Source of the DNA: Brasilonema sp. UFV-L1
Lineage (GTDB): Bacteria; Cyanobacteriota; Cyanobacteriia; Cyanobacteriales; Nostocaceae
DNA length: 43,162 bases
NCBI RefSeq assembly: GCF_012912105.1
Contig: NZ_QMEA01000043.1
Coordinates: forward strand, 1 to 43,162
Direction of reading: 5' to 3'
Position 1 is the stretch's first letter. Every line of letters begins with the position of its first letter. Both the position numbers and the translations under genes were made by a program. The notes below the pieces were generated by a model. That model saw only the letters and a list, made by a program, of their open reading frames with translations. It was not told the origin of the DNA and made no database searches. Positions 3,259-8,991 of this stretch are shown piece after piece.

Positions 3259-3336
3259 TGAAGAACCAGCGGAGCGTCTATGCCTCTGATCAGAAGACAC
3301 AAGTCAGGATTGCTGAATCGATTTGGTTGGGGATTC

Positions 3337-3417
3337 ATATCAAGTCCGTTAAATGACTTATCAAAAGTCCGCAGCAGAGCGCGTAGCGGGCAAGAAGTGT
3401 TTATCCGGACTTGATAT
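3337..3417. repeat. 81-bp element with 12-bp perfect terminal inverted repeats
   Basis: ATATCAAGTCCG at 3337-3348 is matched by its exact reverse complement at 3406-3417. The interior contains a GCAGAGCGCGTAGCGGGC-type segment, a motif common in dispersed cyanobacterial repeats. It is small enough to be a MITE or a REP-like hairpin. The 67-codon open frame across it (3353-3556) has no ribosome site or recognisable product and is not called as a gene. Confidence 0.55.
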
Positions 3418-3591
3418 CAGTCGTCAGGAGCATAGACAAGAGGAACGTTCCTGGATTCTGGCGAATGATTCTTCTTCAATTGAACGTTCTGTTTGTGTCG
3501 ATATATTTTTAATATCTTCTCTCTATCAGATAGCCTTAGATTGTATCGTTTCATAATCTCAATGATGTGTTAATTAATAACTACGGATGAA

Positions 3592-3672
3592 GGGTATGAC
3601 CCTTCATTTGTTTCTATAAAAACAAGGGGTATGACCCATCATTGATTCATACTTAATTAAGGGGTATAACCC
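3592..3672. promoter_or_regulatory. three GGGTATGACCC palindromes at exact 35-bp spacing
   Basis: Palindromic cores occur at 3592-3602 (GGGTATGACCC), 3627-3637 (the same) and 3662-3672 (GGGTATAACCC). Start-to-start spacing is exactly 35 bp both times, while the sequence between cores is A/T-rich and diverged. The arrangement suggests three binding sites for a dimeric protein, or a degenerate tandem repeat. The nearest downstream elements are a possible 20-codon ORF at about 3784 (MRKYLDILP...) preceded by GAGG, and the duplicated RNA module. Which of these it controls, if any, is unknown. Confidence 0.5.
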
Positions 3673-3872
3673 CACATAAATTTGTCATAGAAAGAGATGT
3701 AAAATTAGACTTGAAAGTGTTCCTTAGGGTAAATCTCTGAGAGATAAAGCTCCGCTAGACTCAAGATGATTGAGGAAAAAACATGAGGAAATATCTGGAT
3801 ATATTACCAATTTTTGTCGTACTAGGTCATTTATCAAATCAATAAAAAACTTGCCAAAATGGCAACAAAACT

Positions 3873-4016
3873 ATGAGCAACTCAGTTAAATTAAAGAAGG
3901 TAAATGACTTCAAGGGTATTGTTATCAGGGTGTATCGCATACCATTAGATGTGATACACCTTCTACCAAAAAATCACCAAATAAATATCAAAGTATATCT
4001 TTGGTGTACTGACTAG
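3873..4016 (+). CDS. small ORF, copy A of a duplicated peptide
   Basis: A 47-codon frame opening MSNSVKLKKVNDFKG and continuing IVIRVYRIPLD. A second copy at 4562 encodes the same core, MNESIKLKKVNDFKG, then VVIRVY. In the shared part the nucleotide differences are mostly silent or conservative (AAT/AAC, TCA/TCG, I/V exchanges), which hints at coding constraint. Against this, no ribosome site is visible and the copies diverge after about 22 codons. A hairpin (TTGCCA/TGGCAA) sits just upstream, and the 3' half overlaps another hairpin at 3929-3960. I do not recognise the peptide. Confidence 0.35.
   Translation: MSNSVKLKKVNDFKGIVIRVYRIPLDVIHLLPKNHQINIKVYLWCTD
3929..3960 (+). other. conserved hairpin, copy A
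   Basis: GGTGTATC (3929-3936) pairs with GATACACC (3953-3960), extended inward by GCAT/ATGT-type pairs. The second copy near 4618-4650 keeps the pairing through changed bases (C-G becomes U-G, G-U becomes A-U). This supports selection on RNA or DNA structure rather than on sequence alone. Confidence 0.5.
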
Positions 4017-4049
4017 TTGTCGAAATAAATACATATGAATAATTAAGTT

Positions 4050-4214
4050 TACATTTACCGCACCAGGAATACTCAGCCCGTACAGGCGTTGTCGTTGACC
4101 TGCACATTAGCCCCCTAAATCACTGGCAGTGTCTGTACATATTCCTGTCTCTTCAGCGGTAAATGCTAAGTGGGAGCTTGAAAGCGTTTGGTATGCTTGC
4201 TCCCACTCTTTTTT
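4050..4214 (+). ncRNA. structured RNA candidate, copy A
   Basis: The outer helix CATTTACCGC (4052-4061) pairs with GCGGTAAATG (4156-4165). Inside it AGGAATA pairs with TATTCCT, and GTACAG can pair either with the nearby CCTGCAC (one mismatch) or with the distal CTGTAC. A TTAG-CCCC-CTAA mini-hairpin exposes a C-rich loop. A strong terminator follows at 4170-4214. A possible promoter (TTGTCG at 4017, AT-rich -10 near 4037-4045) would start transcription at about 4050, just where the helix begins. A near copy lies 658 bp downstream with compensatory changes. The family is not identified; a 6S-like rod is one possibility. Confidence 0.55.
4170..4214 (+). terminator. intrinsic terminator of RNA copy A
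   Basis: GTGGGAGC (4170-4177) pairs with GCTCCCAC (4199-4206), followed directly by TCTTTTTT. The same hairpin, loop included, recurs in copy B. A textbook Rho-independent terminator. Confidence 0.8.
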
Positions 4215-4529
4215 CTTTTACTTAAGTTTTTGAAGATAACAAAAATAATTTTTTAAGGATTATTCTCCAGATAACAAGAATTCTCTCTTGAGTAGAAAAC
4301 GGCTGTGCTGTCAGGACATAGCAAGGCTTTGTGCTTCTAGGAGATAATTTATAGTTTCTGTAAACTAAAAGCGCGGTCAAGCATTCAAAACTAAACAATC
4401 CAAAGTCAAATTTCCAGTACTAGTGAGTCAATTTAGACTATAACTTAAGCGAATCTGATTGAGAAAACAAGATAAAAAAATCTATCTAGATTCATGACCA
4501 AGTTATATTGTGTGCTGTCATTTTCCAAA
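4215..4529. other. AT-rich spacer between the two RNA modules
   Basis: About 315 bases with no convincing gene and no strong hairpin that I can see. It is the unique DNA between the duplicated blocks. A 23-codon frame opens at about 4493 (MTKLYCVLSF...) and overlaps the next small ORF, but it has no counterpart in copy A and is not called. Confidence 0.4.
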
Positions 4530-4561
4530 AATAAAAAACCTGCCACTTTGGCAACCAACCT

Positions 4562-4636
4562 ATGAACGAATCGATTAAATTAAAGAAGGTAAACGACTTC
4601 AAGGGTGTTGTTATCAGGGTGTATTACATATTATAA
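4562..4636 (+). CDS. small ORF, copy B of the duplicated peptide (shortened)
   Basis: A 24-codon frame, MNESIKLKKVNDFKG followed by VVIRVYYIL, then TAA. It matches the first 22 codons of the ORF at 3873 with silent or conservative differences, then stops early. It has the same hairpin (TGCCA/TGGCA) just upstream and the same downstream hairpin. It may be a decayed paralogue, a leader peptide, or chance open frame inside a conserved RNA. Confidence 0.3.
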   Translation: MNESIKLKKVNDFKGVVIRVYYIL

Positions 4637-4707
4637 ACGTGATACACTTTCTACCACAAAAAGCAGAAAAAAATGGCTATTTTTTGGAAAAAAATAATAA
4701 TCAGGTT

Positions 4708-4872
4708 TACATTTGTCGCACCAGGAATATCCAGCCCGTACAGGCGTTGTCGTTGACCTGTACATTAGCCCCCTAAATAACTGGCAGTGTCTGTACATAT
4801 TCCTGTCTCTTCAGCGGCAAATGGTGAGTGGGAGCTTGAAAGCGTTTGGTATGCTTGCTCCCACTTTTTTTC
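4708..4872 (+). ncRNA. structured RNA candidate, copy B
   Basis: Duplicate of the RNA at 4050. The outer helix here is CATTTGTCGC (4710-4719) with GCGGCAAATG (4814-4823). Relative to copy A, an A-U pair has become G-C with both partners changed, and a neighbouring pair is now G-U. The local hairpin GTACAGG/CCTGTAC is perfect here. The C-rich TTAGCCCCCTAA loop and the terminator at 4828-4871 are retained, and AATAAT at 4696 could be the -10. Transcription would run towards recR, but the terminator separates them. Confidence 0.55.
4828..4871 (+). terminator. intrinsic terminator of RNA copy B
   Basis: GTGGGAGC (4828-4835) pairs with GCTCCCAC (4857-4864), followed by seven T. Identical in stem and loop to the terminator of copy A. 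Confidence 0.8.
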
Positions 4873-4941
4873 TTAATAGCGTTAAATAGGCTCTCACAAA
4901 TGTCATCATAGTTATGGTGAAAACACATTGGAGATAAGACA

Positions 4942-5538
4942 ACGGTTTACGCACGCCCTTTAGCACGTTTAATTGAACAACTGCAACGCTTGCCGGGAGT
5001 AGGTCCTAAAACTGCTCAGCGGTTGGCATTGCATATTTTAAAGCGACCAGAAGCAGAAGTTGAGGCTTTGGCACAAGCTCTTATTGAAGCAAAAAAACAG
5101 GTGGGTTTGTGTTCTGTTTGTTTTCACCTATCTGCTGAACCAGTTTGTGAAATCTGCCGCAACTCAAACCGTGACAACACGACTATCTGTGTAGTCGCAG
5201 ACTCGCGTGATGTGATTGCCTTGGAAAAAACCCGTGAGTTCAAAGGCAAGTATCATGTTTTAGGTGGGGTCATTTCTCCAATTGAGGGCATTGGACCAGA
5301 ACAGTTGACTGTCCAAGCTTTGGTGCGAAGGGTGAGTCAGCACAAACCTCAAGAGGTTATTTTGGCAATTAGTCCAAGTGTGGAAGGTGAAACAACGACA
5401 CTGTATGTGGGTCAACTACTGAAGCCATTTACCAAAGTGACGCGCATTGCTTTCGGTTTGCCTGTGGGTGGTGATTTGGAATATGCTGATGAGGTGACCT
5501 TGGCAAGAGCTTTGGAAGGTCGGCGAGAGCTAGATTAA
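4942..5538 (+). CDS. recR: recombination protein RecR
   Basis: Recombinational repair factor that works with RecO/RecF to load RecA at gaps. Visible parts in order: helix-hairpin-helix [14 protein letters not shown], a zinc finger with four Cys ([16 protein letters not shown]), a Toprim core ([15 protein letters not shown]) and the C-terminal [20 protein letters not shown]. Homology runs upstream of the first TTG (4990) through [14 protein letters not shown], so the true N-terminus is near 4942. No in-frame ATG, GTG or TTG exists between the stop at 4918 and 4990. GGAGA at 4930 fits an ACG start at 4942, giving about 198 residues, the normal length. ATAAG occupies the place where ATG would be expected. 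Confidence 0.88.
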
Positions 5539-6110: not shown

Positions 6111-8828
6111 ATGCCAAGGAATATCCGTTGGGACGAATCTGTAAAAGAGAATACACAGTGTTTAGTAGAAGTTTTACTGTTTCATGCAGATGATGCATTC
6201 AAGGATGAGAAACTAAAAAGCATAGTTAATGTGGAGTGGGTAACAGAGAATAAACTGCGAGTCACAGGATTTGAAGACAAGCAGACAAGTGGTAAAAGAA
6301 AGCGAACAGTTGAAGTTGGTACCAAAAAAGAATATTTACTCAAGCTACTTCACAAAGCTGACAAAAGTTTAAGACTTCCCAAACCCAAAGACGAAGTTAG
6401 TAAAAGTCCAGAACACAGAGAATTAGATGAAATTCAAACTGCACTCGACTGCTTGAACGAGTTAGGAGTGCGAGAAGACGAAAAATCTGCAAAGAATAAA
6501 GGTTATTGGAAATTTACACTGACGCTAAAACATCAGACAGTAACACCGGAAGAAAATCTAGAGGTAGTAAAGCGGAAGTGGAGGGAACACTCAAAGACGA
6601 ATTCACTGGAGAGATCCCAAACTCCACAAACAACGGATAAAAGCATTTACTGTCAATCAATCTGCCATAAGAAGCTGGAAAAGCCGCAAGAATCCGCCAG
6701 ACTCAAATGCGAAGCACCTGAGATGGGATTTGAGGTAGATACTCTAGTGCCGCAGGTGCGATCGCGTGCCGCAGCCGACATCGGGTACATAGAACAAGTA
6801 GGAAAAATGCGGATGTTTCGGATCAATTATCCTGTACCTGTAACAGATGTATATGTTAACCTCAATATTCTGAAGCAAATAAGCAGCAACGATTTCTCTT
6901 TTTCCAACAGGCACAAAAATTCTGACGATGATTACAGCTGGCGCAGTTTTGACAGACAAGGATTAGGTTCGACACAACAGAAGGAAGTGCCTGCACTTGA
7001 GACAATACATAAACATCGCAAATTGATGGTGCTAGGCAAGCCAGGATCAGGAAAGACAACCTTACTCAAGTCGTTAGCAACTGCCTGCATTTATAAAAAC
7101 TTAGGGTGGAATGATCCAGATTATATTCCAGTTTTCATTGAACTGCGGAAGTTTGCAAAGGATGCTGCAGAGTATAAAAAATTAGGGCATGAGGAATTTA
7201 GCTTATTTGATGCTATCCAAAAGTTGTTTAAACAATGGAAAGTTGCTCCTGAAGGCTGTAAACGTATTTTGGAAGAAGGCAGAACGCTGATTCTGCTTGA
7301 TGGGCTGGATGAGATACCTACTAGCCACAGTGATTTTGTCACATGGCAAGTACGCCACTTCTGTCAAGATTTTGCTAAAAACCGCTTCATTATCACCTGT
7401 CGGACTCAAAGTGTAAAATATTGCTTTGATGATAGTTTTACTGACGTAGAAATTGCAAATTTTACCCAAGAACAAGTTTGTAAATTCGTCCATCACTGGT
7501 TTACTGTAATGGTTGGTGATACAGAAGCAAAGGAGTTAATACAAAACTTAAATACTCAATTACTAGTAAATAGACCTGTTGGAGAGTTAGCTGTTACTCC
7601 AATTTTGCTGAACTTAATTTGCTATGTGTTTTGGGCTAAGCAGGGCGATTTACCAACCAAGCGCTCTGAACTCTATGATGAATGTTTAAAAGGTTTGCTA
7701 GAAGGAGAGTGGGATCAAAGCAGAGGAGTTAAACGAGATAGTGAATTATCCTTAGACGAAAAAGAAAAACTGTTGGCACAAGTAGCATACACGCTGTTCG
7801 AGAATAATGATTATTTCCCACGCCAACGAAAGTTAGAAGAGCTTATTGTCAACTATCTTCAGACTCAACGTTCAGAAGCCAAGTATATTCTAGAATTGCT
7901 AGAATCACAGCATGGCTTGCTCATCCAACGCTCCACACAATATTTTTCTTTCTCCCACCTTACATTTCACGAGTTTTTTACAGCTAAATACATAGTTTCT
8001 AGTCCCAATCTCCAAGAAGTATTTCAACGTCTAGTTACTCACATTACTGAACCACGTTGGAGAGAAGTTTTCTTGCTTACTGTGGAGATGTTAGATCATA
8101 CAGATAACTTGTTGCAGTTATTGCAGTTGATGAGATGTCAGATTGACAAGCTTCTAGCAGGTGATGAGAAGTTACAGCAGTTCCTCTGTTGGGTTGAAGA
8201 AAAATCCCTTTCAGTAAAAACATCACATAATCCTGCTGTTATTCGAGCCTTTTACTTTGATATTGGTTTTGACCTTGCCCAAAATTTTACCGCCTGCCGA
8301 GCACTCTCTTGTGCTGTCAATCAAAATTTTGCCCCTTGCCGAGACCTTGTTGCCAACCCCTTCAACAAGAATTTTGGTCTTAGCCTCTTTCCTGGTATGG
8401 ACTTAGATGACAGCCTCGCTCTCATTTTTATCAACACCTGCGACTTCGGTACAGACCGAATCAATATGGACTCTATTTTCGATAGAGCCACCGACTGCAA
8501 CACTAATCCAAATATACAATGTGAACTGAAACAACTCAAAGACCAATTATCAGATTTCTTTCACGAGAACTCAGAAAATTTCAAACAATGGTGGCAGGAA
8601 AACAGTCAAGCTTGGATAGAAAAACTCAGATCTGTGATGATTAACCATCGTAATATTGGTCACGATTGGAAATTTAGTGAGCTTCAAAAGCAACTGTTAA
8701 AGCAGTACTACGACGCAAATAAACAACTGGTTGATTGTCTTAATAGTGATTGTTGCATCAGTCTGAAAGTGCGGCAGGAGATTGAGAATACACTACTGTT
8801 GCCTATAATAAGAAATATTCCGCCTTAG
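6111..8828 (+). CDS. NACHT domain NTPase (NLR-like, putative defence protein)
   Basis: 905 residues. The N-terminal 200 or so, charged and lysine-rich (MPRNIRWDESVKEN...), match nothing I know and would be the effector or adaptor position. A PVTDVYVNLNIL linker precedes the NTPase. Walker A GKPGSGKTT is near residue 309, Walker B LILLDGLDEIP near 395, and a sensor-like FIITCRTQ near 425. A helical winged segment follows, containing SFSHLTFHEFFTAKYI, the usual NACHT C-terminal motif, and a C-terminal sensor region without clear LRR, TPR or WD repeats. Bacterial NACHT proteins include anti-phage NLR-like factors. The NTPase call is firm; a defence role here is inference, helped by the Dnd island downstream. 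Confidence 0.88.
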   Translation: MPRNIRWDESVKENTQCLVEVLLFHADDAFKDEKLKSIVNVEWVTENKLRVTGFEDKQTSGKRKRTVEVGTKKEYLLKLLHKADKSLRLPKPKDEVSKSPEHRELDEIQTALDCLNELGVREDEKSAKNKGYWKFTLTLKHQTVTPEENLEVVKRKWREHSKTNSLERSQTPQTTDKSIYCQSICHKKLEKPQESARLKCEAPEMGFEVDTLVPQVRSRAAADIGYIEQVGKMRMFRINYPVPVTDVYVNLNILKQISSNDFSFSNRHKNSDDDYSWRSFDRQGLGSTQQKEVPALETIHKHRKLMVLGKPGSGKTTLLKSLATACIYKNLGWNDPDYIPVFIELRKFAKDAAEYKKLGHEEFSLFDAIQKLFKQWKVAPEGCKRILEEGRTLILLDGLDEIPTSHSDFVTWQVRHFCQDFAKNRFIITCRTQSVKYCFDDSFTDVEIANFTQEQVCKFVHHWFTVMVGDTEAKELIQNLNTQLLVNRPVGELAVTPILLNLICYVFWAKQGDLPTKRSELYDECLKGLLEGEWDQSRGVKRDSELSLDEKEKLLAQVAYTLFENNDYFPRQRKLEELIVNYLQTQRSEAKYILELLESQHGLLIQRSTQYFSFSHLTFHEFFTAKYIVSSPNLQEVFQRLVTHITEPRWREVFLLTVEMLDHTDNLLQLLQLMRCQIDKLLAGDEKLQQFLCWVEEKSLSVKTSHNPAVIRAFYFDIGFDLAQNFTACRALSCAVNQNFAPCRDLVANPFNKNFGLSLFPGMDLDDSLALIFINTCDFGTDRINMDSIFDRATDCNTNPNIQCELKQLKDQLSDFFHENSENFKQWWQENSQAWIEKLRSVMINHRNIGHDWKFSELQKQLLKQYYDANKQLVDCLNSDCCISLKVRQEIENTLLLPIIRNIPP

Positions 8829-8919: not shown

Positions 8920-8991
8920 AGCCAGCAGTCGGATTTGAACCGACGACCTTCCGATTACAAGTCGGATGCACTACCACTGTGCTATGCTGGC
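8920..8991 (-). tRNA. trnT-UGU: tRNA-Thr (anticodon UGU)
   Basis: On the minus strand the acceptor GCCAGCA pairs with TGCTGGC. The D arm is GCAC/GTGC, the anticodon stem TCCGA/TCGGA carries loop CTTGTAA giving anticodon UGU, and the T arm GTCGG-TTCAAAT-CCGAC is canonical. CCA is not encoded. A promoter is visible at 9051-9079. Confidence 0.95.

Follow-up and report, generated by a model that had tools for sequence, protein, structure and literature searches.

What kind of element is repeated in tandem upstream of recR in Brasilonema sp. UFV-L1, and what might it do? The stretch of DNA analysed, here called the window, comprises 43,162 nucleotides of contig NZ_QMEA01000043.1. Self-comparison confirmed the two tandem copies that had been described in an earlier note on this DNA, and placed them at positions 3841-4216 and 4530-4874. 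Identity between the copies was 85% for the segments 3841-3941 and 4530-4630 and 93% for 4038-4213 and 4696-4871, and a DNA search of the whole genome retrieved these two full copies alone. They are preceded on the 5' side by a D-Ala-D-Ala ligase gene (946-2091, Pfam) and a hypothetical gene (2162-2917) that gave no Pfam match; recR (4990-5538, Pfam RecR domains) lies directly downstream of copy 2. Measured from a conserved promoter-like dyad to the terminator, the RNA genes extend over 3852-4214 and 4541-4872. Very probably, the copies represent a single standalone non-coding RNA gene of ~300 nt that has been duplicated in tandem. The features of both copies are as follows:

3852-3864, forward strand: copy 1, promoter-like dyad TGCCA-AAA-TGGCA; spacer of 3 in 109/109 full copies
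3887-3892, forward strand: copy 1, -10-like box TAAATT (TAN3T), 22 bases past the dyad; same offset in 107/109
3896-3930, forward strand: copy 1, 5' element GAAGGTAAATGACTTCAAGGGTATTGTTATCAGGG, conserved in sequence without covariation
3899-4214, forward strand: copy 1, predicted transcript of ~316 nt; putative start 7 bases past TAN3T
3927-3962, forward strand: copy 1, variable hairpin GTGTATC../..GATACAC (fold); absent from many homologues as judged by eye
4052-4165, forward strand: copy 1, rod closed by a 10-bp outer helix (fold, covariation, covariance-model matches)
4111-4118, forward strand: copy 1, apical loop CCCCCTAA with almost invariant AA and five C, predicted to be open
4168-4214, forward strand: copy 1, terminator-like hairpin and T-run; loop region GCGTTTGGTATGC conserved (fold, covariation)
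4541-4553, forward strand: copy 2, promoter-like dyad TGCCA-CTT-TGGCA (pattern search)
4576-4581, forward strand: copy 2, -10-like box TAAATT (promoter alignment)
4588-4872, forward strand: copy 2, transcript of ~285 nt, predicted from the promoter layout
4616-4650, forward strand: copy 2, variable hairpin (fold)
4710-4823, forward strand: copy 2, rod closed by a 10-bp outer helix (fold, covariation, covariance-model matches)
4769-4776, forward strand: copy 2, apical loop CCCCCTAA (alignment, predicted openness)
4826-4872, forward strand: copy 2, terminator-like hairpin (fold, covariation)

DNA comparison detected the RNA in 74 of 149 relatives, and 110 copies were collected from 82 loci; one of them was truncated by a contig end, leaving 109 full copies. 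The dyad TGCCA-N3-TGGCA was present upstream of all 109, always with a spacer of 3. The motif TAN3T stood exactly 22 bases past the dyad in 107 of the 109 copies, as against at most 10 copies for each of the other offsets between 0 and 59, and the -10-like box read TAAATT in 81. In the class-II activator layout the centre of the dyad lies near -41, and the arrangement found here looks like a promoter of this type. Transcription would then start near 3899 and 4588 and yield a transcript of ~285-320 nt. In the window, the dyads start 200 bp (copy 1) and 169 bp (copy 2) upstream of the outer helix, which contradicts the earlier placement of a promoter at the very start of this helix; the transcript of ~160 nt proposed to begin there was likewise not supported. 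Nor did the small ORF that had been assigned to each copy withstand comparison: a start codon occupied the slot in 52/109 copies, 46 of these 52 frames were 30 codons or shorter, and the ORF would begin upstream of the predicted transcript start.

NtcA-activated promoters have the same layout of dyad, 22 bases and TAN3T. The NtcA site, however, is a GTA-N8-TAC dyad at about -41, and it was rejected as an identification since the dyad was TGCCA-N3-TGGCA in 109/109 copies. The J-Box of the SigJ regulon, described as an extended -10 with the sequence GGGaAtacT (PMC6495340), was also rejected, the -10-like box here being TAAATT in most copies. Within the genome of Brasilonema sp. UFV-L1, the bare dyad occurred at three sites, two of them at the RNA, compared with two control matches, and a looser promoter pattern gave nine matches compared with one in the control. 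One of these nine, a further site with the right dyad and spacing, TGCCGAAATGGCAAC-N20-TATTGT, was located on the minus strand (C282:50888-50928, L003); it has no obvious gene behind it and gave no Rfam match at gathering score. The 5' element GATAAACGACTTCAAGGGTGTTGTTATCAGGG that accompanies the promoter was strongly conserved in sequence, and two candidate hairpins in it exhibited covariation no higher than shuffles in a 40-row alignment. The latter held 40 of 46 rows: L067_1 was left out for want of a promoter match, and L043_2, L090_1, L090_2, L091_2 and L092_2 were omitted by manual choice.

The rod together with the terminator folded at -59.6 kcal/mol in copy 1 and -60.6 kcal/mol in copy 2 (z -4.89 and -4.94; 0/200 shuffles as stable), confirming the rod, the 10-bp outer helix and the strong terminator reported before for each copy. 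Folds of the predicted transcripts reached z -5.48 for copy 1 (3899-4216; 0/100 shuffles as stable) and z -3.32 for copy 2 (4588-4874; 0/200). Between the copies, A-U in the outer helix is replaced by G-C, a change of both partners (CATTTACCGC/GCGGTAAATG versus CATTTGTCGC/GCGGCAAATG), as the earlier note had observed. Its statement that the hairpin near 3929 and 4618 also covaries was too strong, because the copies differ there by three changes on one side only and by the loss of one pair (compared by eye over 3927-3962 and 4616-4650). The terminators, called identical in the same note, are indeed strong terminator-like hairpins, but they are nearly and not fully identical.

Covariation was assessed in 46 diverse rods, obtained from the 109 full copies by selection for similarity (91 rows), length (89 rows; the degenerate rods L043_1 and L052_1 were removed here) and identity below 0.86. 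Two-sided changes occurred in 28 of 48 pairs and amounted to 138 cells, compared with a shuffle mean of 44.4, and no shuffle out of 500 came up to the real alignment in any of five measures; the two-sided counts do not depend on the hand-set structure alone. Under the set structure 92.0% of the paired positions could pair, as against 38-51% when the structure was slid along the alignment, a percentage that for the inner rod helices leans to the chosen structure because they were drawn manually, guided by the copy 1 fold and the alignment. From the 89-row core alignment RNAalifold recovered the outer helix and the terminator alone. The outer helix was 98.7% paired with two-sided changes at 7/10 pairs, and the terminator helix (helix 6) 99.0% paired with two-sided changes at 4/9 pairs. 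The pattern of sequence change thus lends strong support, for both rod and terminator, to the view that selection acts on structure, already put forward for this module.

At the tip of the rod lies the loop CCCCCUAA, whose C's and two A's, unlike its U, were kept in 90% or more of the 46 rows. In 86 cores, the mean unpaired probability of the loop was 0.75 and that of the core as a whole 0.35; mean loop openness exceeded 0.8 in just 37% of these cores. The loop resembles the seed of an sRNA, a conserved and accessible single strand, in its conservation and predicted openness. An alternative helix between the 5' strand of the rod and the loop flank was not convincing, with 61.7% of positions paired and 60.7% in shuffles.

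A covariance model of rod and terminator matched 202 of the 217 genomes in the GTDB family to which the window belongs, including 195/206 good genomes and 55/56 genera. In a sample of the phylum 41 of 386 genomes were matched, all of them the own genome or members of the same family, and 0/343 genomes outside the family gave a match, nor did two within it; the filters used in both searches may miss weak matches. With laxer filters, 14 of the 15 unmatched family genomes again gave no match and one gave a weak match (E 0.06). An exact DNA pattern of promoter and 5' element retrieved 113 stretches, all cyanobacterial by title and mostly from Nostocales genera. BLAST detected the rod in 103 of them, and some of the others end at the edge of the stretch.

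No named family accounts for this RNA. A search of Rfam 15 with E up to 5 gave four matches, all under gathering score, in agreement with the earlier note, which had found no family to assign; the only gathering-score match across the whole window was a tRNA (8920-8991). 6S RNA (RF00013, ssaA), which the note had named as an example of a known family, binds RNA polymerase and templates product RNAs. It shares with the module an interrupted rod, a comparable size and a wide distribution in the clade. A dyad promoter, a tandem arrangement and the conserved loop of the terminator hairpin set the module apart from it. 6S RNA was rejected, as its covariance model did not match within the module and the single 6S RNA of the genome was located on contig C111 with 101.2 bits. 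NsiR1 is likewise a non-coding tandem RNA of heterocystous cyanobacteria, but it measures ~60 nt and has a HetR-dependent promoter, whereas ~285-320 nt and a TGCCA-N3-TGGCA dyad are predicted here. Table 1 of an sRNA survey in Nostoc sp. PCC 7120 contains RNAs that run from start site to terminator, some of them confined to heterocystous strains (PMC4734099). They resemble the present RNA in this form and are listed there by PCC 7120 coordinates. Searches of open-access literature listed nothing recognisable as this RNA or its dyad, which is weak evidence of absence.

The position of copy 2 immediately upstream of recR raises the question whether the RNA serves as a cis-acting leader of this gene, either as a riboswitch or as an attenuator. 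The RecR of the window was matched in only 10 of 224 RNA-bearing loci, of which six are pieces of this window and the remainder are three loci of one other genome (L006, L086 and L123) and L160, where it lies more than 2 kb off; distant recR genes would be missed in this count because many loci extend only ~1.5 kb past the RNA. Since recR was seen next to the RNA only here and in one congeneric genome, its position is not conserved. Among 168 distinct loci, 73 have a hypothetical protein cluster upstream and 51 have the ligase two genes upstream; one of the first two genes downstream codes for an alpha/beta hydrolase in 73, and in the rows listed it lies on the opposite strand. The likely ancestral arrangement, as far as gene order tells, is ligase, hypothetical gene, RNA and convergent hydrolase. 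Because the usual downstream hydrolase is convergent, the RNA is not the leader of the next gene, and a function as recR leader is highly improbable. Even slightly less credit is due to the notion of a MITE-like mobile or repetitive element in place of a gene. Tandem copies, up to nine in one genome (G023), would fit such an element, but most genomes listed hold one or two, synteny is kept in about 73 of the 168 loci, and distant blastn matched none of 72,556 plasmid and 50,697 phage records.

Other features of the window were observed nearby. Three 35-nt direct repeats starting GGGTATGACCC or GGGTATAACCC are located upstream of copy 1 (3592-3696), and an imperfect 28-nt inverted repeat, its arms 75% complementary and 35 nt apart, occupies 3332-3422. 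A protein of 905 aa (6111-8828) contains the domains NACHT, effector-associated domain 4 and NCH2; it is a STAND-type ATPase, a class known from defence and signalling in bacteria.

The promoter layout is not confined to this RNA. Of 388 genomes from the order, 182 contained the pattern dyad-AC-N20/21-TAN3T; eight of the rows listed, counted by eye, had a reversed-control match. Thirty loci from families other than that of the window (L272-L301) were taken one per genome and not hand-picked, some being near-identical relatives; in 10 of them a leader ORF, e.g. MIISDLNYLE...GG, followed within 300 nt. When 11 hand-picked stretches, mostly with tandem sites, were included, 33 of 57 distinct sites preceded a leader ORF, compared with 128/4000 positions drawn at random from the 30 loci. 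Several of the other sites, as judged by eye, lay inside coding sequence or ahead of other genes. Across L272-L312 the layout was common to many small double-glycine-leader genes, several of them in tandem arrays. Seven small peptides or neighbours were searched against Pfam without a match apart from one at chance level (E 0.094), and five of the seven matched no NCBIfam model. The leaders resemble in their double-glycine motif the small secreted EbfG peptides of Synechococcus elongatus (PMC4997328). In genus g107 (L348-L350) the sites precede leader peptides, and also an RTX protein gene with a PPIase gene behind it; genes for HlyD and a peptidase-C39 ABC transporter adjoin the promoter sites, and no dyad was seen ahead of the C39 exporter or HlyD. 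EbfG is not known to be linked to the TGCCA-N3-TGGCA promoter.

Inside the family of the window, 24 genomes chosen for extra or missing sites contained 39 promoter sites, 19 of them at this RNA, and none of the non-RNA sites listed had a recognisable leader peptide behind it. For this reason the connection with peptides draws on other families only, and a link between the RNA and secreted peptides, deduced from the promoter layout that they share, is suggestive only. Possible further RNA genes were seen behind the same layout. In genus g39 (L327, L329, L330 and L331) it precedes a conserved hairpin-rich stretch GTGCAAGGGGTGTAGCAAAAGTAGCCCCGACC..., and in L322 and L334/L351 the sites, tandem in L334, are followed by a terminator-like hairpin ..CGGG../..CCCG... 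An Rfam search of 20 dyad loci returned a HEARO match only (L277), ~770 bases past the dyad.

We propose, with a probability of roughly one in two, that the RNA is a trans-acting regulator of the antisense type which presents its C-rich loop and whose activator is shared with secreted-peptide genes. A trans-acting sRNA would be transcribed as a unit of its own; promoter-like and terminator-like signals and a standalone position are read here from the sequence. An activator would bind the dyad at about -41 and recruit RNA polymerase; it is probably the same that controls double-glycine-leader secreted peptides in sister families. The transcript of ~285-320 nt would begin at the 5' element, continue through a variable A+T-rich linker into the rod and stop at the terminator. 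The rod may keep CCCCCUAA single-stranded, so that it could pair in trans with G-rich stretches of mRNAs, for instance ribosome-binding sites. As the activator is probably shared with secreted-peptide genes, the targets would most likely belong to secretion or cell-surface functions. Against this reading count the limited openness of the loop (above 0.8 in 37% of the cores), the deviating loop of one rearranged copy (L343, CCCUUAAA), the 5' hairpins that do not covary, the peptide link that comes from other families, the bare dyad with three matches to two control matches in the genome of the window, the C39 exporter before which no dyad was seen, and six genomes with promoter and 5' element but no rod.

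The loop could instead bind a protein. The main rival to the antisense-type regulator is accordingly a scaffold RNA for a protein or the polymerase, in which a long interrupted rod sequesters its partner as 6S RNA does; we give it about half the credit of the regulator. Interrupted helices, a closing stem and a bulged region recall 6S RNA in outline, and conservation resides at the level of structure. Against it, Rfam gave no 6S match here and the 6S RNA of the genome is the one on the other contig, while the best-conserved single-stranded part is a short C-rich loop suited to base pairing. Rather unlikely, and behind the scaffold, is an origin as 5'/3' untranslated scaffold of a secreted-peptide mRNA, in which function would lie with promoter, 5' element and terminator and the RNA body would be a relic or gene container. 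This would be consistent with the same layout before leader-peptide genes, whose 5' UTRs by eye hold a similar CAAC..AAGG..GUUG, and with several rearranged loci. In six genomes of genus g4 (L259-L263 and L265) the hypothetical gene is followed by promoter and 5' element only, and no rod was seen. In genus g39, 10 of 13 genomes have the rod and 3 do not; an ORF of 311 aa (795-1730, no Pfam match) lies between 5' element and rod in L343, and in L344 and L345 the promoter precedes the same ORF with no rod. The rearranged copy of L343 carries the loop CCCUUAAA in place of CCCCCUAA. Strong compensatory change in 46 diverse rods and presence in 202 of 217 genomes would, however, not be expected of a relic.

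It is possible, though doubtful, that a promoter class which precedes genes for small secreted double-glycine peptides in other filamentous cyanobacteria, in one genus next to a C39 exporter gene, serves a structured multi-copy RNA in this family, and that this RNA forms the regulatory arm of a programme for the cell surface or for peptide signalling. With its fixed spacing, the dyad offers a concrete, testable handle on an uncharacterised activator and also on small secreted peptides, of which those tested had no match in Pfam or NCBIfam. An RNA of ~300 nt that is carried by nearly every genome of a much-studied family and has no Rfam family represents a gap in RNA annotation.
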